IMG/VR virus record: IMGVR_UViG_3300031565_000487
Location: 1-20,317 of that record
Strand: one strand, 5' to 3'
Source of the DNA: a virus
Length of the DNA stretch: 20,317 nucleotides
Shown here: in pieces, positions 1 to 20,316 of the stretch
Numbering within the stretch: position 1 is the first letter of the stretch
How the letters are laid out: each line of letters starts with the position of its first letter
Notes under the pieces: model-generated
The model's input: only the letters and a program-made list of their open reading frames with translations
Database searches by the model: none
What the model was told of the DNA's origin: nothing
Position numbers and translations under genes: made by a program

Positions 1-836
1 AATAATTTTGATATCGCATCCGCTGGCAACCCGCTTATTTTTTTAAAGACTCCAATTAATCCTTCGCTTTGCAGGGTAGCCGTATTCATACTAAAGCCTA
101 GTTCCTCGGCGTAACTAGCCGCTTCCGCAGAAGGCGATAAAAACGCGGTTATAATCGACGTTACGGCGGTAACGGCGGCATCGGTTTTAACGCCCGCACG
201 TGTCAAGGTTGCAAGTGATGCGCCCAATTCGTCCAGCCCAACGCCGCCGCTGGCAGCAATGCTGGCAACGTTACCAATTGCCGGGGCAAGTTCCCCGAAG
301 GTCGTTTTACCACGCTTGACAATGGTGAATAATAGGTCTGATATATCAGCCGCTTGGCTCGCGTTTTTGCCGTAGCTGTTTAGTATGGTCGTGATCGCGT
401 CAGCCGCTACGCCAGTATCAGTCAATCCAGCGGTTGCCGCCTTTGCTGCCACGTCCAACACATCCAGAGCGTCAGCCGCTGGCACCGATGCACTAATAAT
501 ATCATACAAGCCTTTAGACAAAGTCTCCGTGCTTTCCCCGAATTTGATAGCCATGTTTTGCAAACCGGCTTCAAAGTTTTTTAGCGTCTCTTTTGGAAAA
601 TCTCCAAGCGTCGATATGTTTGCAATCTGCGTTTCAAATTGTGAAAACTCTTTTGCGCCGATAGCAAACGGCGCGGATATTGCCGCACCAACTTTTAAAA
701 ATTGGCTGCCGATTTTGCTGATATTTTCGGAAAATGCTTTAATCTTTTTTTGCGCTGTGTCAAGTTGCTCTTTCAAATTATCACGTAGCGTTAACTCTAC
801 ATATCCACCACCCGCTTTAATATCGCTTGCACTCAT
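1..836 (-). CDS. Tail tape measure protein, N-terminal part
   Basis: The reading frame starts at an ATG whose first base is the last base of the upstream stop (TAATG). It stays open for 278 codons to the left edge, so the 3' part lies outside the window. The visible part holds ISAPFAIGAKEFSQFETQIA (about residues 55-75) and LSKGLYDIISASVP (about 115-130), followed by repeated Ala/Gly-rich helices. This is the conserved N-terminal core of tailed-phage tape measure proteins (TIGR01760 type). Such proteins set tail length and are ejected with DNA. The position after the chaperone, holin-like and minor tail genes fits. Role is confident; total length is unknown. Confidence 0.9.
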   Translation of the reverse strand, partial: MSASDIKAGGGYVELTLRDNLKEQLDTAQKKIKAFSENISKIGSQFLKVGAAISAPFAIGAKEFSQFETQIANISTLGDFPKETLKNFEAGLQNMAIKFGESTETLSKGLYDIISASVPAADALDVLDVAAKAATAGLTDTGVAADAITTILNSYGKNASQAADISDLLFTIVKRGKTTFGELAPAIGNVASIAASGGVGLDELGASLATLTRAGVKTDAAVTAVTSIITAFLSPSAEAASYAEELGFSMNTATLQSEGLIGVFKKISGLPADAISKL

Positions 837-1498
837 TATTTGACCCTCACGCTATTATTAAAGATGTCATTTAATTTTGTTTTGTGCCTTTGCAAAAACA
901 AATTAAATGTCGGTCGTCTTGGATACCTTGCAGTTGATTTTGCATTAAGCGAAAATTGCGGATGCCGTTTAGATATAGCGTCAATAATATCGCGTGACCG
1001 CTCGACCTGTCTATCGCTTCGCAATTTTCCCCAGACTAAATTTTTGTAAACAGTCTTAATGTTTTTCGGCACGTTTTGGGGTGTTCGCTTTTTAATCCTA
1101 CCATAACGCACGGGCCCAGAGCCACCCACGCGCAACCGTGCGTTTAATCGCGCTGCATTTGCCAGCCCCGACGTGTTCGGGAAAGTTCCACCGAATTCAT
1201 GCTTTTTAATTCCGCCCCACGCAAAACGTGAAGCCAAAAAGCCGACAATGACAGATTTTTTATTATTGACCGTGCGGATAATATTTTTAAGACCACCGGT
1301 TTTTACGTGAGTGTATGGCGGTCTTTCAGCCGGACTTGCAAGCTGTTTATTTTTACGATATCGAATACTATTCCGCGCAACCCGATATATATACTTTGAC
1401 ATTGCCACTATGCCGCGCTGTGTGCGATCATGGTAAGTTGCAGGCAATCGCTGCGAAAACTTGCGGTCAAAGTGTGGGGTAAATTTCGCTTGAAACAT
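836..1498 (-). CDS. Minor tail / head-tail protein, HK97 gp10-like
   Basis: This predicts a basic 220-residue protein starting MFQAKFTPHF. I chose the ATG at 1498 over an in-frame start at 1531 because it overlaps the upstream stop as TAATG, the same junction seen at the tape measure gene. Near residues 55-120 the pattern PPYTHVKTGGLKNII, then KHEFGGTFPNTS, resembles HK97 gp10 or minor tail proteins (P-x-x-T..G.L...I; E.GG). The C-terminal half is rich in Arg and Lys. Position just before the tape measure supports a tail structural or completion role. The family assignment rests on motif resemblance only. Confidence 0.5.
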   Translation of the reverse strand: MFQAKFTPHFDRKFSQRLPATYHDRTQRGIVAMSKYIYRVARNSIRYRKNKQLASPAERPPYTHVKTGGLKNIIRTVNNKKSVIVGFLASRFAWGGIKKHEFGGTFPNTSGLANAARLNARLRVGGSGPVRYGRIKKRTPQNVPKNIKTVYKNLVWGKLRSDRQVERSRDIIDAISKRHPQFSLNAKSTARYPRRPTFNLFLQRHKTKLNDIFNNSVRVK

Positions 1499-1929
1499 TA
1501 TCTGATATCCGCCCAGTTTTGCTTGTAACACGCACCCGGTTTCATTTCCGGTAAAAGCCCTTCCTCTGCGATGTCGTCGTCGCTATTGTCTAGCGGTAAA
1601 CAATACCACCCTTCGGGTATATCCATTTGCGTCAGCACCTGCCCATCCGGAGTCATTACCCAGACGGCAACACCTTTAAGCGGTTGCGCCAGCTTTACCG
1701 GCTCACCGTGCGGTACGTAAATTGTCCGGGTGAATAGTTTACATCCACTAGCGCAAAGCACAAGAACAAGGGCAAGCGCGATATACCACTTGCCCATTAT
1801 CTGTTTCCGTAATTGTTTTTTTAGTTTTGGCTGCGTCGTGGCTTCGATATGTGTTGGCTTCGCGCTATCCAGCATCGCCGGGAATATCACTCTCGCAAGT
1901 GCAATTACAATGTTTATTATCAGTTGCAT
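1498..1929 (-). CDS. Membrane-anchored lipoprotein, possible spanin-like or structural protein
   Basis: The start at 1929 follows a good ribosome site (GAAGGGAGAAAACG before ATG) and gives 143 residues beginning MQLIINIVIALARVIFPAML. A second hydrophobic segment begins at the internal Met at position 1797 (MGKWYIALALVLVLCASGCK). It looks like a type II signal peptide ending in the lipobox-like ASGC, with Ala rather than Leu at -3. The mature part contains YVPHGEPVKL and PEGWYCLPL, a pattern I associate with small lipoproteins of planctomycete-like prophages (from memory). The N-terminal 44 residues look like a separate small protein fused in frame, or a leader for a nested start. Neighbouring holin-like genes make a lysis role possible but unproven. 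Confidence 0.6.
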   Translation of the reverse strand: MQLIINIVIALARVIFPAMLDSAKPTHIEATTQPKLKKQLRKQIMGKWYIALALVLVLCASGCKLFTRTIYVPHGEPVKLAQPLKGVAVWVMTPDGQVLTQMDIPEGWYCLPLDNSDDDIAEEGLLPEMKPGACYKQNWADIR

Positions 1930-2083
1930 CGTTTTCTCCCTTCGCGTCAATCTCAAACTGTTTCGCAATCCGTGTTACCGGATTAACATCGACAATCTTT
2001 TGCGCGTTAATCCGGCAGCTATAGATGCCGATAATTTCCGCGCCGTCTGATACCGCCCAAACCTCTATGTGGCATCGTGTCAT
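1865..2083 (-). CDS. Small hypothetical protein
   Basis: This predicts 72 residues beginning MTRCHIEVWAVSDGAEIIGI. Its start codon overlaps the stop of a possible micropeptide upstream, and GTGGGGTGAT lies upstream as a weak ribosome site. The last 65 bases overlap the next gene out of frame. The N-terminal 45 residues look like a compact alpha/beta fold. The C-terminal tail is polar with three closely spaced Cys residues (HCNCTCE). Without it most of the interval 1930-2083 would be empty, unlike the rest of this operon. I do not recognise the family. Confidence 0.5.
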   Translation of the reverse strand: MTRCHIEVWAVSDGAEIIGIYSCRINAQKIVDVNPVTRIAKQFEIDAKGENDATDNKHCNCTCESDIPGDAG

Positions 2084-2151
2084 TTTTTATCACCCCACTC
2101 TAATAACACAATAGCCCAAGCGGTAACTAGTAAAACTATAGCCAGACACAA
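2080..2151 (-). CDS. Possible transmembrane micropeptide, TTG start
   Basis: This 23-codon frame would start at TTG and encode a nearly uninterrupted hydrophobic segment (LCLAIVLLVTAWAIVLLEWG) ending DKK. Its TGA overlaps the ATG of the next gene as ATGA, the same coupling seen elsewhere in this operon. It fills the gap after the holin-like gene almost exactly. Against it: the start is TTG and no clear Shine-Dalgarno sequence precedes it. If real it could be a lysis or antiholin peptide; that is speculation. Confidence 0.3.
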   Translation of the reverse strand: MCLAIVLLVTAWAIVLLEWGDKK

Positions 2152-2153
2152 AG

Positions 2154-2498
2154 TTATTTAATCTCGTTATGCAATGCGTTTATGGCTTCGGCGATAGCCC
2201 GCGTGTCAACTGCGTTAGGAGTAGTTCCTTCCGCTCGCGCAATACCAGCGCAAACGATTTTCAACGCTTCGTCAAATCGCCGCACGTGTTTATTTTCAAC
2301 GTTATCCGGAATAGTTTTTTCCACCTGTCGAATTGCTGAAACGATAGTGCCCCGGTATTTATCCGCGTAAATCTGCCATTGCGGTTTAGCTGCATAAACC
2401 CTATTAATGATAAACGCAGTGACAGATAACACCATTGCAAAACCAAAATCAGAATTTACAAGTTTCCACGCCATTTCAAGCACGTTGTCAATGTTCAT
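2154..2498 (-). CDS. Holin-like / small membrane protein
   Basis: This predicts 114 residues. A single hydrophobic segment (about residues 17-35, DFGFAMVLSVTAFIINRVYA) is followed by KPQWQIYADKYRG and a long soluble helical tail (IVSAIRQVEKTIPDN, FDEALKIVCAGIARAEG). The pattern of one N-terminal membrane segment, K-x-x-W and an amphipathic tail resembles LL-H-type holins or small lysis accessory proteins found near tail genes. Its ATG overlaps the upstream TGA (ATGA) and is served by GAGAGGAAAAAA. I judge a membrane location secure and the holin role tentative. Confidence 0.5.
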   Translation of the reverse strand: MNIDNVLEMAWKLVNSDFGFAMVLSVTAFIINRVYAAKPQWQIYADKYRGTIVSAIRQVEKTIPDNVENKHVRRFDEALKIVCAGIARAEGTTPNAVDTRAIAEAINALHNEIK

Positions 2499-2923
2499 TT
2501 TTTTCCTCTCTCGTTTTCCGGTAAAAACATCTTTAACATCGATATCGACGATGCGTCCAATTTTATTTTATTGCCGCCCAAACTCTTTGATTCCCGATAC
2601 GGTGAAAAAGCGTCGTACGGAATCTGCTTAGCCTTCGATTTTTGCCGCATATTTATTGCTACGGCAACCGGCAATGACATGCGATACCATGCCGCACTAT
2701 CAACACGTTCCGCCGCATCGCAAATTTCGCGTAACGTCCAGCCCGCATACGGTAACCCAGACACCGCCAGACCGCAAACTACTTGCCGTCTAACGCATCC
2801 GATATAACCGTATTTAGATTTAATTCGTTCTGCCGCTTTGTTATCCGGCTTACTAGTTCCGCCTCCGCCGTCCGCGCGTTGTTCACCGCCAGCCGTATCA
2901 TCTCGCGCCGGCGTGGCGGGCAA
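2495..2923 (-). CDS. Tail assembly chaperone second frame (T-like), start unresolved
   Basis: The frame is open from just after a stop at about 2938 to 2495 and lies at -1 relative to the upstream G-like gene, overlapping its last 145 bases. The part that looks like real protein is the C-terminal 90 residues: GWTLREICDAAERVDSAAWY, then MSLPVAVAINMRQKSKAKQ and YDAFSPYRES. This resembles the second (T) part of siphophage tail assembly chaperones or small minor tail proteins. The first 40 residues of the open frame are Gly/Pro-rich and look like a shadow of the G gene. No ATG with a ribosome site begins it, so expression by -1 frameshifting from the G-like gene, or from a weak start, is inferred. 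Confidence 0.55.
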   Translation of the reverse strand: MPATPARDDTAGGEQRADGGGGTSKPDNKAAERIKSKYGYIGCVRRQVVCGLAVSGLPYAGWTLREICDAAERVDSAAWYRMSLPVAVAINMRQKSKAKQIPYDAFSPYRESKSLGGNKIKLDASSISMLKMFLPENERGKK

Positions 2924-3234
2924 AAATTTACGTATGCTTCAAGCATCGCCTCCGCCGCTGATTCCCAGCTATCGCCATCCATCGATTCGTAAAATTCACT
3001 TTCGGTTAATCCTTGCGCTTCGACTTGTTTTTCGACGCAAGCGAAAACCACACGGCAAATTTTAACCGGGTCAAGGCTAACCGTCAGCAAATCTTGCGGC
3101 TCTGTGATATCAATCCCCAGCCGGTCGCGGATCGCATCGATCGTCAATATCGTTATCCGAATATTGTACGTTCGATTCTGGCTGTCTTGGAAAATCGTTT
3201 TTTCTTTTTCGACTTCGTTTTGTTTCGCCTTCAT
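2779..3234 (-). CDS. Tail assembly chaperone first frame (G-like)
   Basis: This predicts 151 residues. I chose the ATG at 3234 because GGGGGGAGAAA precedes it; the in-frame extension to 3327 is a shadow of the Cys-rich gene in another frame. The protein has YNIRITILTIDAIRDRLGID (about 22-41), LLTVSLDPVKICRVVFACVE, an acidic middle (ESMDGDSWESAAEAMLEAY) and a charged helical end. Position between tail tube and tape measure, size, acidic helical nature and the -1 overlapping downstream frame all match the lambda G / GT arrangement. Sequence similarity to a named family was not checked. Confidence 0.6.
   Translation of the reverse strand: MKAKQNEVEKEKTIFQDSQNRTYNIRITILTIDAIRDRLGIDITEPQDLLTVSLDPVKICRVVFACVEKQVEAQGLTESEFYESMDGDSWESAAEAMLEAYVNFCPPRRREMIRLAVNNARTAEAELVSRITKRQNELNLNTVISDALDGK
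2923..2929 (-). other. Candidate -1 slippery heptamer A AAT TTT
   Basis: Read in the frame of the G-like gene, the codons AAT TTT are preceded by A, giving the canonical X XXY YYZ pattern. It lies just inside the region where the -1 frame becomes open (the last -1 stop is at about 2938). It would move ribosomes into the T-like frame. It sits 48 codons before the end of the G-like gene, earlier than in lambda, which weakens the case. Confidence 0.3.
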
Positions 3235-3349
3235 TTTCTCCCCCCATGTTTTCGGTTTTTTTGCAACGACTACATTGTGCGGGAGTAGTTCTCCCGCACA
3301 TTGCAGCGTATTCATGACCACATTCACATTTGACTTTTTCGTAACGCAT
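3110..3349 (-). CDS. Small zinc-ribbon protein, Com-like
   Basis: The ATG at 3349 follows AGGGAGATAAAAA, a good ribosome site. The N-terminus reads MRYEKVKCECGHEYAAMCG, then PAQCSRCKKTENMG. The CxCG...CxxC spacing could bind one zinc ion, as in Mu Com-type ribbons. The first 38 codons lie upstream of the G-like gene and fill an otherwise empty stretch. The remaining 41 codons overlap that gene out of frame, and this tail is low-complexity and charged. The N-terminal ribbon is credible. The real C-terminus would be surprising and should be checked for a sequencing or frameshift event. Confidence 0.5.
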   Translation of the reverse strand: MRYEKVKCECGHEYAAMCGRTTPAQCSRCKKTENMGGENEGETKRSRKRKNDFPRQPESNVQYSDNDIDDRCDPRPAGD

Positions 3350-3374
3350 TTTTTATCTCCCTATTGTCTTACCC

Positions 3375-3821
3375 TTACGGTGTCGGTACGGTATACCAGA
3401 TTGGCGCGTTATCGGAGTAGCCCGGCTTCATACTGACATCGACCATTAATGCTTCGGTCAAGTTTTCGTTACGGCTGAAAGTCATAATGTCAAATTCAGC
3501 GCGAAGTCCCTGACTGCCCGGCGTGGTAATATCGCCATCCATTACCGCAAAGTCAATTAACGTGCCAGCTAAAAACGCGGTCTGTATCGCGGTAAAGTCC
3601 GTGTCCGCCGTGTTCCATACCATGCTAAAGTCAACCGAACCGTCTTTAAGCGTTCCGACCTCTGCCTTCCATCCATTGTTACCACGCGTGGTTACGTCTG
3701 CGACATCTTTGGTAAGTGCCAGCGTAAGGTCGCGGACATTACCGACTAGATCCCACGTAGGCGTTCCATACGTCGCGGTATTGCGGTAAAGTTTCGCGTT
3801 CATGCCAAGTACATGACTCAT
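3375..3821 (-). CDS. Major tail (tail tube) protein
   Basis: This predicts 148 residues starting MSHVLGMNAKLYRNT, with a strong ribosome site AAAAAGGGGAAAAC. The pattern VGNVRDLTLALTKDVADVTT (about 26-45), GSVDFSMVW, a central AVMDGDI and FDIMTFSRNENLTEAL..DVSMKPG is typical of compact beta-rich tail tube proteins of the gpV/TP901-1 class. Length fits the smaller members. It lies directly upstream of the chaperone pair and tape measure, the usual order. It would polymerise as hexameric rings around the tape measure. Confidence 0.8.
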   Translation of the reverse strand: MSHVLGMNAKLYRNTATYGTPTWDLVGNVRDLTLALTKDVADVTTRGNNGWKAEVGTLKDGSVDFSMVWNTADTDFTAIQTAFLAGTLIDFAVMDGDITTPGSQGLRAEFDIMTFSRNENLTEALMVDVSMKPGYSDNAPIWYTVPTP

Positions 3822-5991: not shown

Positions 5992-6618
5992 TTAAAGTTT
6001 TATTATCAGGTTTACTGCCGCCCAAGGCTGCATGTTATTATGCGCTGTGTCGGAACCTTTATTATTGGTTACGGTGAGTGCCGCAGTAGTGCCTTGAGTC
6101 CCTGCACCAACATTACCCGCTACTCCATTCATTGCGTCATTATAATTAAATGCGTGATTATGCGCCGCCAGTTCTGCAGTACTCAATTGATGTGTTTCTG
6201 CACCACCAACCGCACCATGCGTTCTGCTGGTTAAACTACCACCTTGACCAGTACCAATTAAAGAACGACCTCGTGGGTCTGGCATTGTCAATGTTTTATT
6301 AGCCGCAAAGTCCGCCGCTGCATTTGCACCTCTGCCGCTACTGACCGGAGCTTCGGTATTGGTCATTGCGTTATAATATAAGGTATATAAATCCTCTGCG
6401 TCTGCGTTCGCGTAATCTGATCCACTTGCCGCGCTACCTATCGTCCGGATTGCACTGGCACTAGTTGCCAATATCCACCCACTGGGTGAGGTTGTGCCAA
6501 TATACGGCATAATCAGACCGGTAAAAAACGATGCAGCAGCCGCTCCCGGCAGGGTGTCACCTGTGGGCAACTCCTGCAAACTACCCGATATATTCACCAG
6601 CGGTCTACGTTCTGCCAT
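5992..6618 (-). CDS. Tail-collar domain fibre protein
   Basis: This predicts 208 residues. Residues 1-25 (MAERRPLVNISGSLQELPTG, then DTLPG) are the anchor motif shared with the two other fibre genes. From residue 30 the tail-collar fold is clear: GLIMPYIGTTSPSGWILATS, then TMPDPRGRSLIGTGQGG, RTHGAVGGAETHQLSTAELA, AHNHAF, and the terminal WAAVNLIIKL. These are hallmarks of phage tail-collar (PF07484) proteins, usually distal fibre tips that meet the host surface. Function as an adsorption component is well supported; the ligand is unknown. Confidence 0.85.
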   Translation of the reverse strand: MAERRPLVNISGSLQELPTGDTLPGAAAASFFTGLIMPYIGTTSPSGWILATSASAIRTIGSAASGSDYANADAEDLYTLYYNAMTNTEAPVSSGRGANAAADFAANKTLTMPDPRGRSLIGTGQGGSLTSRTHGAVGGAETHQLSTAELAAHNHAFNYNDAMNGVAGNVGAGTQGTTAALTVTNNKGSDTAHNNMQPWAAVNLIIKL

Positions 6619-6636
6619 TATATGCGTCCCTAAATA

Positions 6637-6688
6637 TCCAGTGTGGCGGGCAGCCGGGAGAGAGGTAGCCTACCGCACCAACACTGGA
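6637..6688 (-). repeat. 52-bp inverted repeat with internal hairpin between fibre genes
   Basis: The ends TCCAGTGT and ACACTGGA pair perfectly. Further GC-rich pairing (GCGG/CCGC) and an inner GGTAG-x-CTACC hairpin can form within. It occupies the only sizeable gap (6619-6702) among the fibre genes, just upstream of the collar gene's ribosome site. No T-run follows in either direction, so it is not a classical terminator. It may be an mRNA structure (processing, stability or translation control). Confidence 0.6.
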
Positions 6689-6702
6689 CAAATCTAAAAC
6701 AA

Positions 6703-8971: not shown

Positions 8972-9318
8972 TAAGCACTCGCGGCATAGTTGCCGAGTTT
9001 AACCATGACGGTTGTTTCGGTTGTCACGGTAGCGATACAAACACCAAGACGTTTATTAGTGCCGGAATCGCTTGCGGTCGTTACAGCACCGTCAGCTACG
9101 TCCCAATACACAACCGCGCCAGCGGTTATGCCGCCATCTCCGGTAAGTTTGACCATTTGAAACACACCTTCGACGGCTATTGCGCCGAGAGCATTTGCTG
9201 CGATATCATGAGTAGCAATACCCACGAGTTCGCCCTGAACAATAACGTCACCGGCGGTTACTGCGCTTGACGGTATGTAGTCAATCATCAAGCCTTCTTT
9301 TTTAAAATAAGCTGCCAT
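8971..9318 (-). CDS. Capsid cement (decoration) protein, DUF2190-like
   Basis: This predicts 115 residues from the ATG at 9318, which follows CAAAGGAGATATA; the in-frame extension upstream runs through the hairpin and is rejected. The chain MAAYFKKEGLMIDYIPSSAV, TAGDVIVQGELVGIATHDIA, LGAIAVEGVFQMVK, ITAGAVVYWDVADGAVTT, LGVCIATVTTETTVMVKLG is characteristic of DUF2190 proteins. These sit on or beside HK97-fold capsids as cement, analogous to lambda gpD. Its place directly after the capsid gene agrees. Confidence 0.8.
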   Translation of the reverse strand: MAAYFKKEGLMIDYIPSSAVTAGDVIVQGELVGIATHDIAANALGAIAVEGVFQMVKLTGDGGITAGAVVYWDVADGAVTTASDSGTNKRLGVCIATVTTETTVMVKLGNYAASA

Positions 9319-13681: not shown

Positions 13682-13913
13682 AATATCCATCTCCGGCTAA
13701 TAGCGCAAACCCAGCTTCTAATCTATCGTCGTAATTTTTTTCGTATTCGTCGAAACCTGAAAACCTAGTATCAACGTCCAATTCCCTGCAATGCTGACAC
13801 ATACCTAACGAGTTTAACGCGCTAACATTAACCCCACATCGGCACACGTGATATTTACTATTATCCGGAATAGGTATTGTCGGACACAATTTGATGTCTT
13901 TATTTTTTTTCAT
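13671..13913 (-). CDS. Small Cys-rich protein
   Basis: This predicts 80 residues, starting MKKNKDIKLCPTIPIPDN, with CRCGVNVSALNSLGMCQHC in the middle, a CxCG...CxxC knuckle set that could hold zinc. The C-terminal third is acidic and aromatic (DEYEKNYDD, GDGYYGD). The start overlaps the previous stop (ATGA), and the end overlaps the next gene by 11 bases. No family recognised. Confidence 0.5.
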   Translation of the reverse strand: MKKNKDIKLCPTIPIPDNSKYHVCRCGVNVSALNSLGMCQHCRELDVDTRFSGFDEYEKNYDDRLEAGFALLAGDGYYGD

Positions 13914-14464
13914 TTCTTACCCTCCTGCAAAAATTGACTAAAATGTTCTCGCAAATATGCTGCTTGCGTTTCAGCAATTACACGTAATCTTTTCTTATAG
14001 ATATAAGAAAAAAACGATCGTTTTGCCTGCGCATAGCGCGTTATTACTGCGCATCGTTGCACGCAATGATACAACCAATCATTACTGCATGCTGCTAATG
14101 CCGCAGCTTCATACACTAGCCCGCCAACCTCACCATGTGCAACCCATGCCATTGCACGCGCCACCGCTAATTCATCCTCCGTCGCTTCACCTACAGCGTA
14201 TTTCTCTGCGATAATCACGGCGTTTCTTGAATGTTCATCTGTCAGTAAATTCCATATATGCCTAACGCACCAACAAGAAAATAAACGCAATTGGTTATTA
14301 CCTATCATGCCTTCACATGTGGCAATATAAATCAATAAATCTGGAGTAGCTGTCAGCCATACTTCGTGCATCGATGTATGGTTATTTATAATTTCCTTTA
14401 AATGCTTATCGTCAATACATATTCTGTGTTTACTAAAAAAGTCTAATATATCTTGTGTACTCAT
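13910..14464 (-). CDS. Ala-rich IWxLLTDE family protein, paralog 1
   Basis: This predicts 184 residues. It shares with 16801-17358 and 17355-17891 the order: HTSMHEVWLTATPDLLIYIA (about 28-47), LRLFSCWCVRHIWNLLTDEH (about 59-78), NAVIIAEKYAVGEATEDELA (about 81-100), a variable Ala-rich middle, and a C-terminal AYLREHFSQFLQEGKK. I recall the same LRLFACxCCRxIWHLL...A...E core in many planctomycete proteins of unknown function. This copy has the least Ala-rich middle and more aromatic and basic residues. The Cys residues after LRLFS could bind metal. Role unknown. Start overlaps the terminase stop (ATGA). Confidence 0.6.
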   Translation of the reverse strand: MSTQDILDFFSKHRICIDDKHLKEIINNHTSMHEVWLTATPDLLIYIATCEGMIGNNQLRLFSCWCVRHIWNLLTDEHSRNAVIIAEKYAVGEATEDELAVARAMAWVAHGEVGGLVYEAAALAACSNDWLYHCVQRCAVITRYAQAKRSFFSYIYKKRLRVIAETQAAYLREHFSQFLQEGKK

Positions 14465-16733: not shown

Positions 16734-16804
16734 TATAATACTCCTATCGCTCGACAAACCAACAAAACAAAATAACACGCACCAACCGCTTGTAAGTCGT
16801 TCAT
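16733..16804 (-). CDS. 23-residue hydrophobic micropeptide
   Basis: The frame ATG...TAA encodes MNDLQAVGACYFVLLVCRAI followed by GVL. It has a strong ribosome site (AAGGAGGGTAAAAA) formed by the end of the upstream gene and overlaps that gene's TGA. Its own stop overlaps the next ATG (TAATG). This is the junction style of all true genes here, so translation is likely. It could be a membrane peptide or simply a coupling device. No homology is claimed. Confidence 0.5.
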   Translation of the reverse strand: MNDLQAVGACYFVLLVCRAIGVL

Positions 16805-17358
16805 TTTTTACCCTCCTTTAAGAACGGACTAAAACGCTCACGCAGATATGCCGCCTGCGCCAGCTTCGCCGCTACCTCCTCCTCCTCTGCCGCCCACGCA
16901 CACGCCGCCCACTCCGCCGCCGCCGCCGCCGCCGACCACTCCACACACGCCTCCGCCGCCTCCGCCGCCGCCGCCGCCGCCGACGACCACTCCGCACACG
17001 CCTCCGCTGTCAACGCCGCCTCCGCCGCCGCCGCCTCCGCCGCCCACGTCTCCGCACACGCAGCTTTTAATTCATCTGTAGTCGCCTCTCCGACTGCATA
17101 TTTTTCTGCGACGATAACAGCGTTTTTTGAGCGCTCGTCAGTCAGTAAATGCCACACCTGCCTTGCACACCAGCAGGCAAAAAGACGTAAGTCTCTTTCC
17201 GGCAAAACTCCCTGTCTGGTCGCAACCCAGACCACCCAGTCGGGTCGCGCTTTTAACCACACCTCGTGCATACTATCGCAACTGTTTAACGCCCAATCCC
17301 TGCCATCTGCACAAGCGTAGTGCGTATGGCAAAAATCAACTACCTCGTGTCTACTCAT
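16801..17358 (-). CDS. Ala-rich IWxLLTDE family protein, paralog 2
   Basis: This predicts 185 residues. Shared core: NSCDSMHEVWLKARPDWVVW (about 26-45), LRLFACWCARQVWHLLTDER (about 57-76), NAVIVAEKYAVGEATTDELK. The middle (about residues 105-165) is extreme: runs such as EACAEWSSAAAAAAEAA and EACVEWSAAAAAAEWAA form an internal repeat, followed by EEEEV. The C-terminus AQAAYLRERFSPFLKEGKK matches the other copies. The DNA of the middle is almost pure GCC/TCC/CGC triplets on the plus strand, far richer in GC than the surroundings. Function unknown; the Ala-rich part is probably helical and hypervariable. Confidence 0.6.
   Translation of the reverse strand: MSRHEVVDFCHTHYACADGRDWALNSCDSMHEVWLKARPDWVVWVATRQGVLPERDLRLFACWCARQVWHLLTDERSKNAVIVAEKYAVGEATTDELKAACAETWAAEAAAAEAALTAEACAEWSSAAAAAAEAAEACVEWSAAAAAAEWAACAWAAEEEEVAAKLAQAAYLRERFSPFLKEGKK
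16870..17060. repeat. GC-rich imperfect triplet tract coding for the Ala-rich segment
   Basis: About 190 bases of near-continuous CCGCCG/CCTCCG-type triplets with embedded CAC, TCC and ACG variants. In the gene on the minus strand they encode Ala-rich helix with Glu and Trp. It is an outlier in base composition and a likely site of slippage and length change. Confidence 0.8.
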
Positions 17359-17891
17359 TTTGTTTCATCCTTTAAAAATGGATTAAACATCTCACGCAGA
17401 TATGCCGCCTGCGCCTCCCGAGCATCGTCAACTGTAGTATCATATGCCCACCCAGCATCAACTGGCACCGGAGCCCCCGCAGCATACGCCGAAGCCGTGG
17501 CAACATCTATCGCTACAACTATTTCGTCAGTAGTCCATCTTGCCGCATTATCTGCCCACGTCGCCTCATCGCCAGCCAATAAATCAGCAGCTACACGCGC
17601 AGCATCTAATTCATCCGGAGTAACCTCCCCGCTGGCATATTTTTCCGCGACAATAACCGCAATTTTAAATATATCATCTGTGAGTAAATGCCATATCTGC
17701 ATTACGCACCAACACGAAAACAGTCTTGCTTCTTTGTCGGGCAAAACACATGTGGCAATATAAATCAATAATTCCGGCTGTGCGTTTAGCCACACTTTAT
17801 GCATACTATCGCAACTGTCTATTGCCTTTTGCCTCTCGTCCGGACATATTTTATGCGTACTAAAAAAATCAATAATCTCTTGTTTACTCAT
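17355..17891 (-). CDS. Ala-rich IWxLLTDE family protein, paralog 3
   Basis: This predicts 178 residues from the ATG at 17891 (MSKQEIIDFFSTHKICPDER), which follows GAGAGGGCAAAAA; an upstream in-frame start lacks such a site. Shared core: DSCDSMHKVWLNAQPELLIY, LFSCWCVMQIWHLLTDDIFK, VIVAEKYASGEVTPDELDAA. The middle is moderately Ala-rich but with normal codon mixture (VAADLLAGDEATWADNAARW, ATASAYAAGAPV). The end AQAAYLREMFNPFLKDETK matches. Its stop overlaps paralog 2's start (ATGA), so the pair is a tandem duplication. Function unknown. Confidence 0.6.
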   Translation of the reverse strand: MSKQEIIDFFSTHKICPDERQKAIDSCDSMHKVWLNAQPELLIYIATCVLPDKEARLFSCWCVMQIWHLLTDDIFKIAVIVAEKYASGEVTPDELDAARVAADLLAGDEATWADNAARWTTDEIVVAIDVATASAYAAGAPVPVDAGWAYDTTVDDAREAQAAYLREMFNPFLKDETK

Positions 17892-18069
17892 TTTTTGCCC
17901 TCTCCGTAAAAAAATTACAGTCCGTCCGTGCGGTGTAAATACGTACATCGCCACCACCGTCAACTCTAGTACAAACTCCGTACTGTTTGTCCCTCCAGTA
18001 CGCAGCCCAGTGACAGCACCGCGAACATTTCACCGCGCCAGCCGGGCGCATGTTAATCCGTGTATCCAT
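17884..18069 (-). CDS. Small Cys-rich protein
   Basis: This predicts 61 residues starting MDTRINMRPAGAVKCSRCCH, with CSRCCHW, YGVCTRVDGGG and RTDCNFF. The CxxC...C...C set fits a small zinc-binding knuckle of the kind common in phage accessory regions. The ATG at 18069 follows GGAGG by 7 bases inside the end of the RHH gene (17-base overlap). A later Met at residue 7 is possible. It overlaps the next gene by 8 bases. Confidence 0.55.
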   Translation of the reverse strand: MDTRINMRPAGAVKCSRCCHWAAYWRDKQYGVCTRVDGGGDVRIYTARTDCNFFTERAKNE

Positions 18070-18217
18070 CTACTAGCCTCCGTATTATAGCATCCCTCAC
18101 AAACGTCGATAAACTATCACTACCCCTCATTTTATCGATCTGCGATTTCAAATCAATGCCGATTAAAAAATTAATTCGGTATTTTTTTTCTGGGTTTTCG
18201 ATCCTTTTTCGCCCCAT
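18053..18217 (-). CDS. Ribbon-helix-helix protein (CopG/Arc-like)
   Basis: This predicts 54 residues, short enough to be missed by length cut-offs. After MGRKRIENPEKK comes a strand YRINFLIGI, then helix DLKSQIDKMRGSD, then SLSTFVRDAIIRRLVDGYTD. The strand-helix-turn-helix order, the alternating basic and hydrophobic strand and S.FVRDAI..L are typical of ribbon-helix-helix DNA-binding dimers. The ribosome site AAGGGAGTAACC is strong. It could repress phage transcription, and the palindromic operator at 12911-12934 is an attractive target (inference). Confidence 0.7.
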   Translation of the reverse strand: MGRKRIENPEKKYRINFLIGIDLKSQIDKMRGSDSLSTFVRDAIIRRLVDGYTD

Positions 18218-18228
18218 GGTTACTCCCT
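18142..18228. repeat. Direct repeat copy 1: start region of the RHH gene
   Basis: About 87 bp that recur, roughly 90% identical by eye, at 18467-18555. The repeat covers the ribosome site and the first 25 codons of the ribbon-helix-helix gene. Confidence 0.85.
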
Positions 18229-18450: not shown

Positions 18451-18542
18451 CTCTCCAGTACTCCTAGCGATTTCAAATCAATACCGATCAAAAAATTAAC
18501 ACGGCATTTTTTTTCGGGGTTTTCGATCCTTTTTCTCCCCAT
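18447..18542 (-). pseudogene. Truncated ribbon-helix-helix duplicate
   Basis: The 31-codon frame starts MGRKRIENPEKKCRVNFLIG, matches the full RHH protein at 23 of its first 25 residues, then diverges to LGVLER and stops. The two helices needed for dimerisation are missing. It keeps a strong ribosome site (AAAAAGGAGTAACCAC). Its TGA overlaps the next ATG. It may survive only as a leader that couples translation to the Cys-rich gene. Confidence 0.75.
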
Positions 18543-18555
18543 GTGGTTACTCCTT
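18467..18555. repeat. Direct repeat copy 2: truncated RHH start region
   Basis: Partner of the repeat at 18142-18228. The match begins at the GCGATTTCAAATCAAT side and runs through the start codon and ribosome site. The two copies differ by scattered substitutions, mostly synonymous, so it is an old rather than fresh duplication. Confidence 0.85.
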
Positions 18556-19044
18556 TTTAAAAATGTCAATAACTCGTTTAACATCGACAGGCGCGGACGC
18601 TGTGCCGATTGTCCTAGACAGTTTATTTTGTCCGCCGTAAGATGTCATTAATTGCATCGCGCCGATTGTAGCCTGTAAAGTCAAGGCCTTATTTTTTTCC
18701 GGCTGTGACAGTTTATCAAATTCAGCGCAAGACAAAATCTTACCAGATTTTTTATTAAAACGATTTACTTTGTGTTGCCTATCACCAACGCAATCAACTA
18801 TTTTCCCGCCGGAGATTAACTTAATCCCCTCCCCACGCATGACACCATAAACAAACGCGTGGTCACGCATCAATATCCGCCTCGCTGATTCCAAGAAATG
18901 GCGGTTTTGCTGTATCGGTTTACCGATAATTTGCGATAATTCGTTATAATTAATTATTCGTTCCGGCGCATTATCAGCCAGTTCCAGCAAAAATTTAACG
19001 ATGCTTTGTGTATCGATAGACGGCTCAAAGTTCAAGTTTTTCAT
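18547..19044 (-). CDS. Winged-helix-like DNA-binding protein
   Basis: This predicts 165 residues. Residues about 30-80 (INYNELSQIIGKPIQQNRHF, LESARRILMRDHAFVYGVMR, GEGIKLI) follow a pattern I recognise from phage proteins of unknown function: a 'YxELSxxIG' recognition-type helix, then 'ARRIL.RDH..V...VRGEGIK.L', like a helix-turn-helix with wing. The C-terminal part is basic (RQHKVNRFNKKSGKIL) and helical. It could be a regulator or a small-terminase-like DNA binder. It is the first gene downstream of three CCNNA arrays, and its stop overlaps the ribosome site of the truncated RHH frame. Confidence 0.55.
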   Translation of the reverse strand: MKNLNFEPSIDTQSIVKFLLELADNAPERIINYNELSQIIGKPIQQNRHFLESARRILMRDHAFVYGVMRGEGIKLISGGKIVDCVGDRQHKVNRFNKKSGKILSCAEFDKLSQPEKNKALTLQATIGAMQLMTSYGGQNKLSRTIGTASAPVDVKRVIDIFKKE

Positions 19045-19077: not shown

Positions 19078-19132
19078 CCTTACCTGACCTTACCTCACCT
19101 TACCGCACCCAACCTGACCTTACCCCACCGCA
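19078..19132. repeat. CCNNA pentamer array A (11 units)
   Basis: Eleven contiguous 5-bp units, all exactly CCNNA on the plus strand, with NN in order TT TG TT TC TT GC CA TG TT CC GC. On the coding strand this is a run of TNNGG. It lies 34 bases upstream of the start of the winged-helix-like gene. Confidence 0.95.
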
Positions 19133-19163
19133 TTAATTTTCAAATCCTTTACGGATTTTTGTC
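19133..19163. repeat. Hairpin-bearing spacer, copy 1
   Basis: Follows array A. AAATCC and GGATTT (19142-19147, 19153-19158) form a 6-bp stem with loop TTTAC and a T-run on the plus-strand side. The 30-bp core is identical to the segment after array B, 103 bp away. It could terminate transcription weakly in the plus direction or be a structural spacer. Confidence 0.8.
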
Positions 19164-19175
19164 ATGTTTAAAAAC

Positions 19176-19235
19176 CCTTACCTTACCTTACCTCACCGTA
19201 CCATACCGAACCTCACCCGACCCTACCTGACCACA
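19176..19235. repeat. CCNNA pentamer array B (12 units)
   Basis: Twelve contiguous units, all CCNNA: NN are TT TT TT TC GT AT GA TC CG CT TG AC. It is preceded by TTTAAAAACC, which also introduces arrays C and D in slightly varied form. Confidence 0.95.
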
Positions 19236-19263
19236 TTAATTTTCAAATCCTTTACGGATTTTT
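19236..19263. repeat. Hairpin-bearing spacer, copy 2
   Basis: Same sequence as copy 1: AAATCC / GGATTT stem at 19245-19250 and 19256-19261 with loop TTTAC, followed by TTTTATTG on the plus strand. Confidence 0.8.
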
Positions 19264-19279
19264 ATTGTGTTAAAAATAC

Positions 19280-19334
19280 CCTTAACTTACCTCACCTTAC
19301 CCGACCCAACCGGACCCAACCCCACCCAACCCGA
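19280..19334. repeat. CCNNA pentamer array C (11 units)
   Basis: Eleven contiguous units, ten of them CCNNA and one (the second) ACTTA; NN of the rest are TT TC TT CG CA GG CA CC CA CG. It directly follows the 3' end of the gene at 19343-19906 in the direction of transcription. Confidence 0.9.
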
Positions 19335-19342
19335 ACAAACAT

Positions 19343-19906
19343 TTATTCAAATGACAAAGACAAAATTTTAAACCGTCCGTAATATCCGTTATTGCGCGGG
19401 CGGAATCTACCCAGCCCGATAAATTTTCCAGCCTGTTCGAGGTGATACTCAAACACCTCACGTGTTATTGTATCATCTACGATCAGCGCGTTAAAATTAA
19501 ATTGTGTACCAGCCGGGATGTAAGGGAAACATTTTGCAACGCGTGTAGTGCCACCCCTGCGCCCGTCAGACGGTACATGCAGCCATTCACCGTCAACATC
19601 ATCGCGTTTTATTCCCAGCGGGATTTCCTCTGACAGCAAAATCCCGGCTTCAAAGTGTTTAGTATATGTAGATTTCCCTTTTCCGGGAATCTGCATCGAC
19701 AAATATTTAGCCACCGCCGCAAGGCAATTTTTGATCATCATCGGCGGAATAAAGATTTCCAATGTTTTGGGGAAATAGTGCATCCGCTCCCGCCAAACTC
19801 TTTTTTCATAATCTGCAAAATTTTCTTTTTTTTCTTTTTCAATCGATACAAATTTACTCATTGAAAATGGACTAACAAATTCACATGACACCGTTGCTGT
19901 TTTCAT
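19343..19906 (-). CDS. Unknown protein with Gly/Arg-rich RAMP-like C-terminal loop
   Basis: This predicts 187 residues, MKTATVSCEFVSPFSMSKFV at the start; ribosome site CAGGAGAGAGAG. Segments: FPKTLEIFIPPMMIKNCLAA (about 45-65), GWL-less DDVDGEWLHVPSDGRRGGTT, FPYIPAGTQFNFNALIVDD (beta strands), EHLEQAG-like helix and AGKFIGLGRFRPRNNGYYGR. The last segment, GxGRFRP..GxYGRF, resembles the glycine-rich loop near the end of RAMP-fold (Cas5/6/7-like) proteins. That is a look-alike only: no other Cas feature is near. Similar phage proteins of this length exist, to my memory as hypotheticals. It lies between arrays C and D. Confidence 0.5.
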   Translation of the reverse strand: MKTATVSCEFVSPFSMSKFVSIEKEKKENFADYEKRVWRERMHYFPKTLEIFIPPMMIKNCLAAVAKYLSMQIPGKGKSTYTKHFEAGILLSEEIPLGIKRDDVDGEWLHVPSDGRRGGTTRVAKCFPYIPAGTQFNFNALIVDDTITREVFEYHLEQAGKFIGLGRFRPRNNGYYGRFKILSLSFE

Positions 19907-19930
19907 CTCTCTCTCCTGTTTTTAAAAAAC

Positions 19931-19990
19931 CCTTACCTTACCACACCGAACCACACCCCACCCAACCGAACCCCACCCTACCGCACCTAA
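19931..19990. repeat. CCNNA pentamer array D (12 units)
   Basis: Twelve contiguous CCNNA units with NN TT TT AC GA AC CC CA GA CC CT GC TA, plus a terminal CCAAT. The right end runs into the stop codon of the upstream gene. On the coding strand it lies 24 bases upstream of the start of the RAMP-like gene. Confidence 0.95.
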
Positions 19991-20316
19991 CCAATCAACC
20001 CATCGCGTACACCGCGCATGTATGTTAATGTGTCATCAATAATTTTAACGCATTCGCCTTCAGCCTGTGCGATAAAATCTGTAGCAATAGTTTCTAACTC
20101 TTTGTCAGTGGTATCAGCCGTTATTTCATCTCGCGCCGATTGATTAAAATATTCCCACGCAAAAAATACCACGTGGCAGTCGCAATCATCGTGATCGACA
20201 CCTAACACTATCTCATTTACCGACCTAACATCGCCTGATCTAACGTATGGCAAGATCGCAGTAATTAATTTATTCATCGCATCCGCCGATATCAATTCCG
20301 GGATATACCAGCGCAT
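19987..20316 (-). CDS. Hypothetical protein at right edge (possibly partial)
   Basis: 109 codons are visible, starting at an ATG one base from the right edge (MRWYIPELISADAMNKLITA), so the true start may lie outside. It is acidic and alpha/beta (VNEIVLGVDHDDCDCHVVFF, TDKELETIATDFIAQAEGEC). The DHDDCDCH stretch could be a metal site, though nothing is known of it. It ends GLIG with the stop inside the last CCNNA unit. No family recognised. Confidence 0.5.
   Translation of the reverse strand: MRWYIPELISADAMNKLITAILPYVRSGDVRSVNEIVLGVDHDDCDCHVVFFAWEYFNQSARDEITADTTDKELETIATDFIAQAEGECVKIIDDTLTYMRGVRDGLIG

Follow-up and report, generated by a model that had tools for sequence, protein, structure and literature searches.

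What are four runs of a five-base unit, constant at three positions and changing at the other two, doing in a phage genome? The window analysed here, the whole 20,317-nucleotide stretch of IMG/VR virus record IMGVR_UViG_3300031565_000487, is viral, 20.3 kb long, and codes for tailed-phage proteins (terminase, portal and capsid); the relatives of its terminase and capsid are all distant. An earlier note, made from the sequence alone, had counted the four runs and judged them to be no microsatellite, CRISPR or iteron known to it.

Anatomy of the four arrays

On the plus strand, the window carries four CCNNA arrays of 11, 12, 11 and 12 units, of which 45 of 46 match exactly, as the earlier note had counted; the single mismatch, in array 3, is ACTTA at 19285-19289 (TAAGT on the minus strand). 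Searching for (CCNNA)6 with up to two mismatches gave 28 matches in the window, whereas 100 dinucleotide shuffles of it gave 0.00 on average. The middle bases take at least 14 different dinucleotides (at least 13 had been claimed), and across the 44 units in strict runs T, G and G are invariant while all four bases are present in each free column, which bears out the view that CC-A is held and NN is freed. Read on the minus strand, which is the coding strand of the flanking genes, the arrays are (TNNGG)n with the RNA unit GGU-NN. The note treated them as protein-binding sites on DNA, with the winged-helix protein at 18547-19044 as first candidate; instead, the functional strand is most likely the minus strand with the unit TNNGG (GGT-NN), and the arrays most likely act as RNA from it. 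The features are as follows, with labels that follow the assignment argued below.

19931..19990, minus strand: putative vrRNA array 4, 5′ of vipr; 12 TNNGG units, guide NN (5′-3′) TA GC AG GG TC TG GG GT TC GT, then AA AA
19343..19906, minus strand: vipr, predicted RAMP (Cas7-like) guide-RNA-binding protein; 187 aa, PHROG_4652-like, G-loop GLGRFRPRNNGYYGRF
19280..19334, minus strand: putative vrRNA array 3, first 3′ of vipr; 11 units, one imperfect (TAAGT), NN CG TG GG TG CC TG CG AA GA (AA) AA
19176..19235, minus strand: putative vrRNA array 2, second 3′ of vipr; 12 units, NN GT CA AG CG GA TC AT AC GA AA AA AA
19135..19160, minus strand: separator between arrays 2 and 1; 6-bp hairpin AAATCC-GTAAA-GGATTT, 103-bp period
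19078..19132, minus strand: putative vrRNA array 1, third 3′ of vipr and directly 5′ of vap; 11 units, NN GC GG AA CA TG GC AA GA AA CA AA
19063..19077, minus strand: A/T-rich 3′ extension, candidate minimal tail, G..TTTTTTAA.AC (similarity judged by eye)
18547..19044, minus strand: vap, accessory protein, homologue of phage SUSP1 vap1 by profile search (the winged-helix protein of the earlier note)

The order on the minus strand is thus the ORF at 20316-19987, array 4, the gene at 19906-19343, arrays 3, 2 and 1, and the gene at 19044-18547. Arrays 1-3 lie between the genes at 19343-19906(-) and 18547-19044(-), and array 4 lies upstream of 19343-19906(-). The arrays are intergenic and upstream of genes, as had been noted, with the qualification that array 4 overlaps the stop codon of the ORF at 19987-20316(-). 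Arrays 3, 2 and 1 are spaced by near-identical segments of ~40 bp, and a near-identical copy of the separator is found at 19238-19264. Further copies of the 3′ extension occur at ~19161-19175, 19265-19279 and 19917-19930, so that a short, similar stretch follows 4 of the 4 arrays. Rfam gave no match, hammerhead included.

Elsewhere in the window, three genes look alike (13910-14464, 16801-17358 and 17355-17963, minus strand), the last two matching PHROG_18326, and a 51-bp tandem repeat at 16903-17035 codes for an Ala-rich stretch inside one of them. A diverged direct repeat (18147-18220 and 18469-18545) was also seen, in which the 5′ part and leader of the small ORF 18053-18217(-) recur upstream, adjoining vap.

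Variable arrays are linked to a RAMP protein

The earlier note had proposed searching for (CCNNA)n in other phages, and variable arrays do recur in dozens of viral contigs. Scanning viral contigs for (CCNNA)8 yielded at least 120 stretches; many of the matches listed are plain microsatellites with a single NN, but NN vary in at least 56 loci, one of which is that of the window. In many of these loci several arrays stand in tandem, on one strand per locus. Among the matches listed, one family of ~200-aa proteins, which includes the product of 19343-19906, is encoded near the arrays in 46 of the 56 variable-array loci; 47 of 48 family members are on the array strand, at a median of 61 bp from an array. 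One locus, L091 (IMGVR_UViG_3300012971_000018), has ~25 arrays, one of them a run of 47 units, and also a shortened second vipr-like ORF at 6364-6693. In the short contig L055, where no vipr was found, a terminase-like ORF with an apparent intein insertion (809-3772, plus strand) adjoins variable arrays.

The window protein, hereafter Vipr, matches PHROG_4652 (E=1e-10), and is recognised by no Pfam or PADLOC model; searches of INPHARED phages and GTDB genomes gave no match. An AF2 model built from a 38-sequence alignment reached pLDDT 95.4 and pTM 0.88, and its best PDB matches are Csm3 (E 3e-8) and type VII Cas7 (E 4e-8). The PDB matches listed are Cas7-type or other RAMP subunits from type III, type VII and Cas7-11 CRISPR complexes. 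As first candidate for the binding protein, the RAMP protein is to be preferred to the winged-helix protein. The window itself contains no CRISPR repeats or spacers by tandem-repeat scan, and Pfam and PADLOC gave no Cas match for the tested neighbouring genes, in keeping with the note's "not a CRISPR"; its rejection of an iteron is accepted as right as well.

The window is very probably a further VIPR locus

The one description matching these arrays in a literature search is a preprint of April 2026 (PMC13142463, bioRxiv 10.64898/2026.04.26.720920). There, VIPR consists of a RAMP protein and vrRNAs built from 9-16 YNNGG repeats. The NN of these repeats specify a DNA target, pairing with DNA so that one base, usually the wobble base, is skipped per pair; the targets are competing phages. 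The preprint shows transcription, RNP formation, the skip rule, repression and phage defence for SUSP1 and P. fulva, and in SUSP1 reprogramming of NN changes the regulated gene. Seven VIPR types are published, of which SUSP1 is type II. Membership traits are given as a constant GGY, hypervariable NN, an invariable 3′ tail and a minimal, mostly viral locus, together with a single RAMP homologue, having an RRM core, a G-loop and a thumb, that is encoded beside the arrays (PMC13142463). As a positive control, we recovered the VIPR locus of phage SUSP1 (KT454805.2, ~27.7-29.2 kb) from sequence, with Vipr at 28474-29061, vap1 at 28031-28471 and arrays both upstream and downstream.

The window has the same components: a single RAMP homologue encoded beside the arrays, arrays of 11, 12, 11 and 12 units (within 9-16 YNNGG) with constant GGY and hypervariable NN, and a vap1 homologue in a minimal locus of a virus record. 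By blastp, window Vipr and SUSP1 Vipr are 26% identical over 148 aa (E=1e-7). A profile of the window vap family, built from its clade, finds SUSP1 vap1 (E=4e-9), and the family adjoins vipr in 71 of 82 clade loci; on this profile match and this frequent presence beside vipr, the winged-helix protein is identified as the VIPR accessory protein. The homology suggests that the window locus is near type II VIPR. Taken together, these results indicate that the four arrays are very probably vrRNA guide genes of a phage-encoded VIPR system. The window is a further natural VIPR locus, outside the SUSP1 clade, of a system that is itself already known; the hypothesis of a Cas7-like filament agrees with VIPR.

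By analogy, the arrays would be transcribed in the direction of the adjoining genes, each transcript having ~9-10 GGU-NN guide units and, towards its 3′ end, AA units and then a short A/U-rich extension. Copies of the RAMP protein (19343-19906) would coat the vrRNA, and in each 5-nt unit a single protomer would grip the fixed GGU and leave the two NN bases exposed. On a double-stranded DNA target, these would pair with two bases out of three (a 1-nt skip), the base left over usually being the codon wobble base. With the assistance of the vap1-like protein (18547-19044), binding would repress a gene carried by a competing phage or mobile element at the level of transcription.

The tail probably differs from that of SUSP1. 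In the 3′ extension, a stable fold beyond that of shuffled sequences was not found and a structured or pseudoknot tail of the SUSP1 type was not recognised. In 152 clade arrays, the share of AA is 61%, 45% and 32% at the last three NN and 3-12% at the first five. We infer that AA units plus a short A/T-rich stretch form the minimal tail of this clade, unlike the structured tail of SUSP1.

NN composition carries a codon signature

Exact 9-10-unit skip-1 patterns of all four window guides gave no natural target in 2.9 million viral contigs. One match, of array 3 to L220, is probably due to chance; it ends where the searched units end, and the base that it skips is codon position 2. No target was found for one window guide in 84,980 genomes, for two window guides in 49 related phage records with three mismatches allowed, or for a guide conserved in three relatives. 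When 445 guides were compared all-against-all with 2.3 Mb of fetched loci at skips 0-3, there was no skip-1 match, and the six skip-3 matches look like missed or homologous arrays. As a control, a SUSP1 guide was likewise without a target in the viral contigs, and the missing window targets therefore say little.

The NN composition of 142 clade guides is fitted best by the genes of the phages themselves at codon positions 1-2, which beat positions 2-3, positions 3-1, average dinucleotides and a uniform distribution in 98.6% of locus bootstraps; for 216 guides from other clades, codon positions 1-2 are best in 70% of bootstraps. The window's 32 scored units alone do not favour frame 1-2 and are too small a sample for the codon test. 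Within-guide strand coherence was seen in frame 1-2 (z=3.4) and frame 2-3 (z=4.4) and was absent in frame 3-1. The codon 1-2 signature agrees with the wobble-skip rule and so lends it indirect support from composition. The note's description of NN as free holds in that they vary, but they are not merely free if, as in VIPR, they are guide information (PMC13142463).

A leader-regulation reading starts from the resemblance to TRAP, whose binding sites consist of a triplet, (G/U)AG or NAG, and a 2-nt spacer in 11-12 units. An 11- or 12-subunit ring would bind GGU in mRNA leaders and control translation, with NN as spacers. The window arrays likewise have a triplet, a 2-nt spacing and 11-12 units, and they lie ahead of the vipr and vap ribosome-binding sites. 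However, the fold of the linked protein is that of a Cas7-type RAMP rather than that of TRAP, and the protein has no Pfam match; among the matches listed, some other loci have 6-26 arrays in tandem, far beyond the need of a leader, and many arrays of relatives have 14-23 or more units. The triplet also differs (NAG in TRAP-binding leader RNA, GGU here), NN composition tracks codon positions 1-2, and NN carry information in VIPR. We consider such regulation very unlikely.

NN turn over on a constant frame

The earlier note named a simple refutation, namely mutations spread evenly over all five positions in related genomes. The flanks of the arrays in the near-identical phages L019 and L090 are 96% and 91% identical. 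None of their 143 units departs from T..GG, while the similarity of NN is at the level of shuffled units, which excludes ordinary repeat decay and supports the note's "not a microsatellite". In L026, L093, L103, L109 and L119, a group of close relatives, whole arrays are common, lost or reordered as cassettes with CAGG between arrays, and sub-strings of units recur between arrays within one phage; the cassette behaviour is somewhat like that of CRISPR spacers.

Such gain, loss, reordering and sharing of sub-strings would also be expected of a fast-evolving minisatellite-type repeat, in which T..GG is kept by a DNA- or RNA-binding constraint and NN are recombined, without targeting. Against this, adjacent units in the window are seldom identical (the same NN in 3 of 40 neighbouring pairs), NN show the codon 1-2 signature, and the arrays are linked to a RAMP protein of a system whose programmability is published (PMC13142463). 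This explanation too has only a slight chance of being right, and guide arrays of a VIPR system remain our preferred reading.

The fixed triplet changes within the Vipr clade

We assembled a clade set of 80 viral loci (L137-L216) with relatives of the window Vipr at 39-61% identity. A strict TNNGG finder detected arrays in only 2 of them. A motif-free search for a 5-bp period with three fixed and two variable columns found 167 arrays near vipr in these loci (0.85/kb), compared to 2 in 681 kb far from vipr (0.003/kb). Triplets were labelled in 61 loci, among them those of the window and L037, and are GGC (19 loci), CGC (15), GAC (10), CTC (5), GGT (4), CAC (4), GTT (3) and GTC (1). L194 and L196 may have an AAT-coded array ~719 bp downstream of the vipr start, which would not fit the [GC][GAT][CT] pattern of the other triplets. 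L165 has extra GGC-coded arrays ~2.5-4.5 kb upstream of vipr and near 9269, one of which scores 32.5; some phages may thus have distant vrRNA clusters.

These triplets largely refute two-tier G-quadruplexes, in which (GG N3)n on the transcribed strand would fold and regulate expression: GG every 5 nt in GGT-coded arrays does allow G2N3 quadruplexes, but relatives of the same family use GAC, CAC, CTC, CGC and GTT, with no GG run, at the same positions, and the invariant T is left unexplained, so that we give this reading practically no weight.

On the Vipr tree, the triplet switched at least 21 times (23 with the tested columns left out), base 2 on no fewer than 14 occasions, and two Viprs that are 74% identical go with GGC in one and CGC in the other. 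With G as base 2, Arg167 in the G-loop is present in 33 of 33 cases, otherwise in 11 of 22. Gly166 accompanies C as base 3 in 48 of 48 cases and T in 3 of 7, U at this position going with Leu166 or a residue other than Gln16. Phe127 is found in 34 of 34 cases with G as base 1 and in 10 of 21 with C, which goes with changes in the thumb loop 111-127. These associations have Fisher p values of 1e-4 to 3e-6 without correction for relatedness, and the residues changed on the tree at least 9 (167), 4 (166) and 5 (127) times. A relatedness-controlled independent-pairs test had only 1-3 pairs on well-supported branches, too few for significance. We lean slightly towards the conclusion that the fixed triplet is evolvable within the window's Vipr clade, with at least eight triplets whose switches track Vipr residues. 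Triplet diversity may be partly known already, since the preprint refers to 'a related consensus', placed in a supplementary figure (PMC13142463).

If true, VIPRs would be mutually orthogonal RNA-guided systems with a scaffold code switchable by few residues, and phages would perhaps avoid loading each other's guides. In this clade the 'constant' code letters are not universal and a handful of Vipr residues may read the triplet. Guide-scaffold recognition by a RAMP protein becomes testable, and orthogonal tool versions could follow.

Comparison with known systems

The closest characterised system is the VIPR of SUSP1, which shares with the window a RAMP protein, a vap1 homologue and one array upstream of vipr, all on one strand, and four reported YNNGG arrays (3 recovered here) of 9-16 units with hypervariable NN. 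The gene order differs, being array-vipr-three arrays-vap in the window and array-vipr-vap1-three arrays in SUSP1. Some SUSP1 units have C or are imperfect and the arrays have a long structured tail, whereas the window arrays deviate hardly at all from T..GG and close with AA units followed by a short A/T-rich extension. Among IMG/VR relatives, L215/L021, L037 and L172 are, like the window, GGT-coded members of the same Vipr clade with arrays beside vipr; their G-loop is GLLR[FW]RP, compared to GLGRFRP with M16 in the window. Class 1 CRISPR-Cas effector complexes line up repeated protomers along a guide RNA, and their subunits (Csm3, type VII Cas7) share the RAMP fold with the window Vipr. Unlike these, the window has a 5-nt unit with three fixed bases rather than a contiguous spacer. 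VIPR, which has been proposed as a viral forerunner of CRISPR, is a minimal system for programmable DNA binding, and the window adds to it a natural VIPR with a compact four-guide locus.
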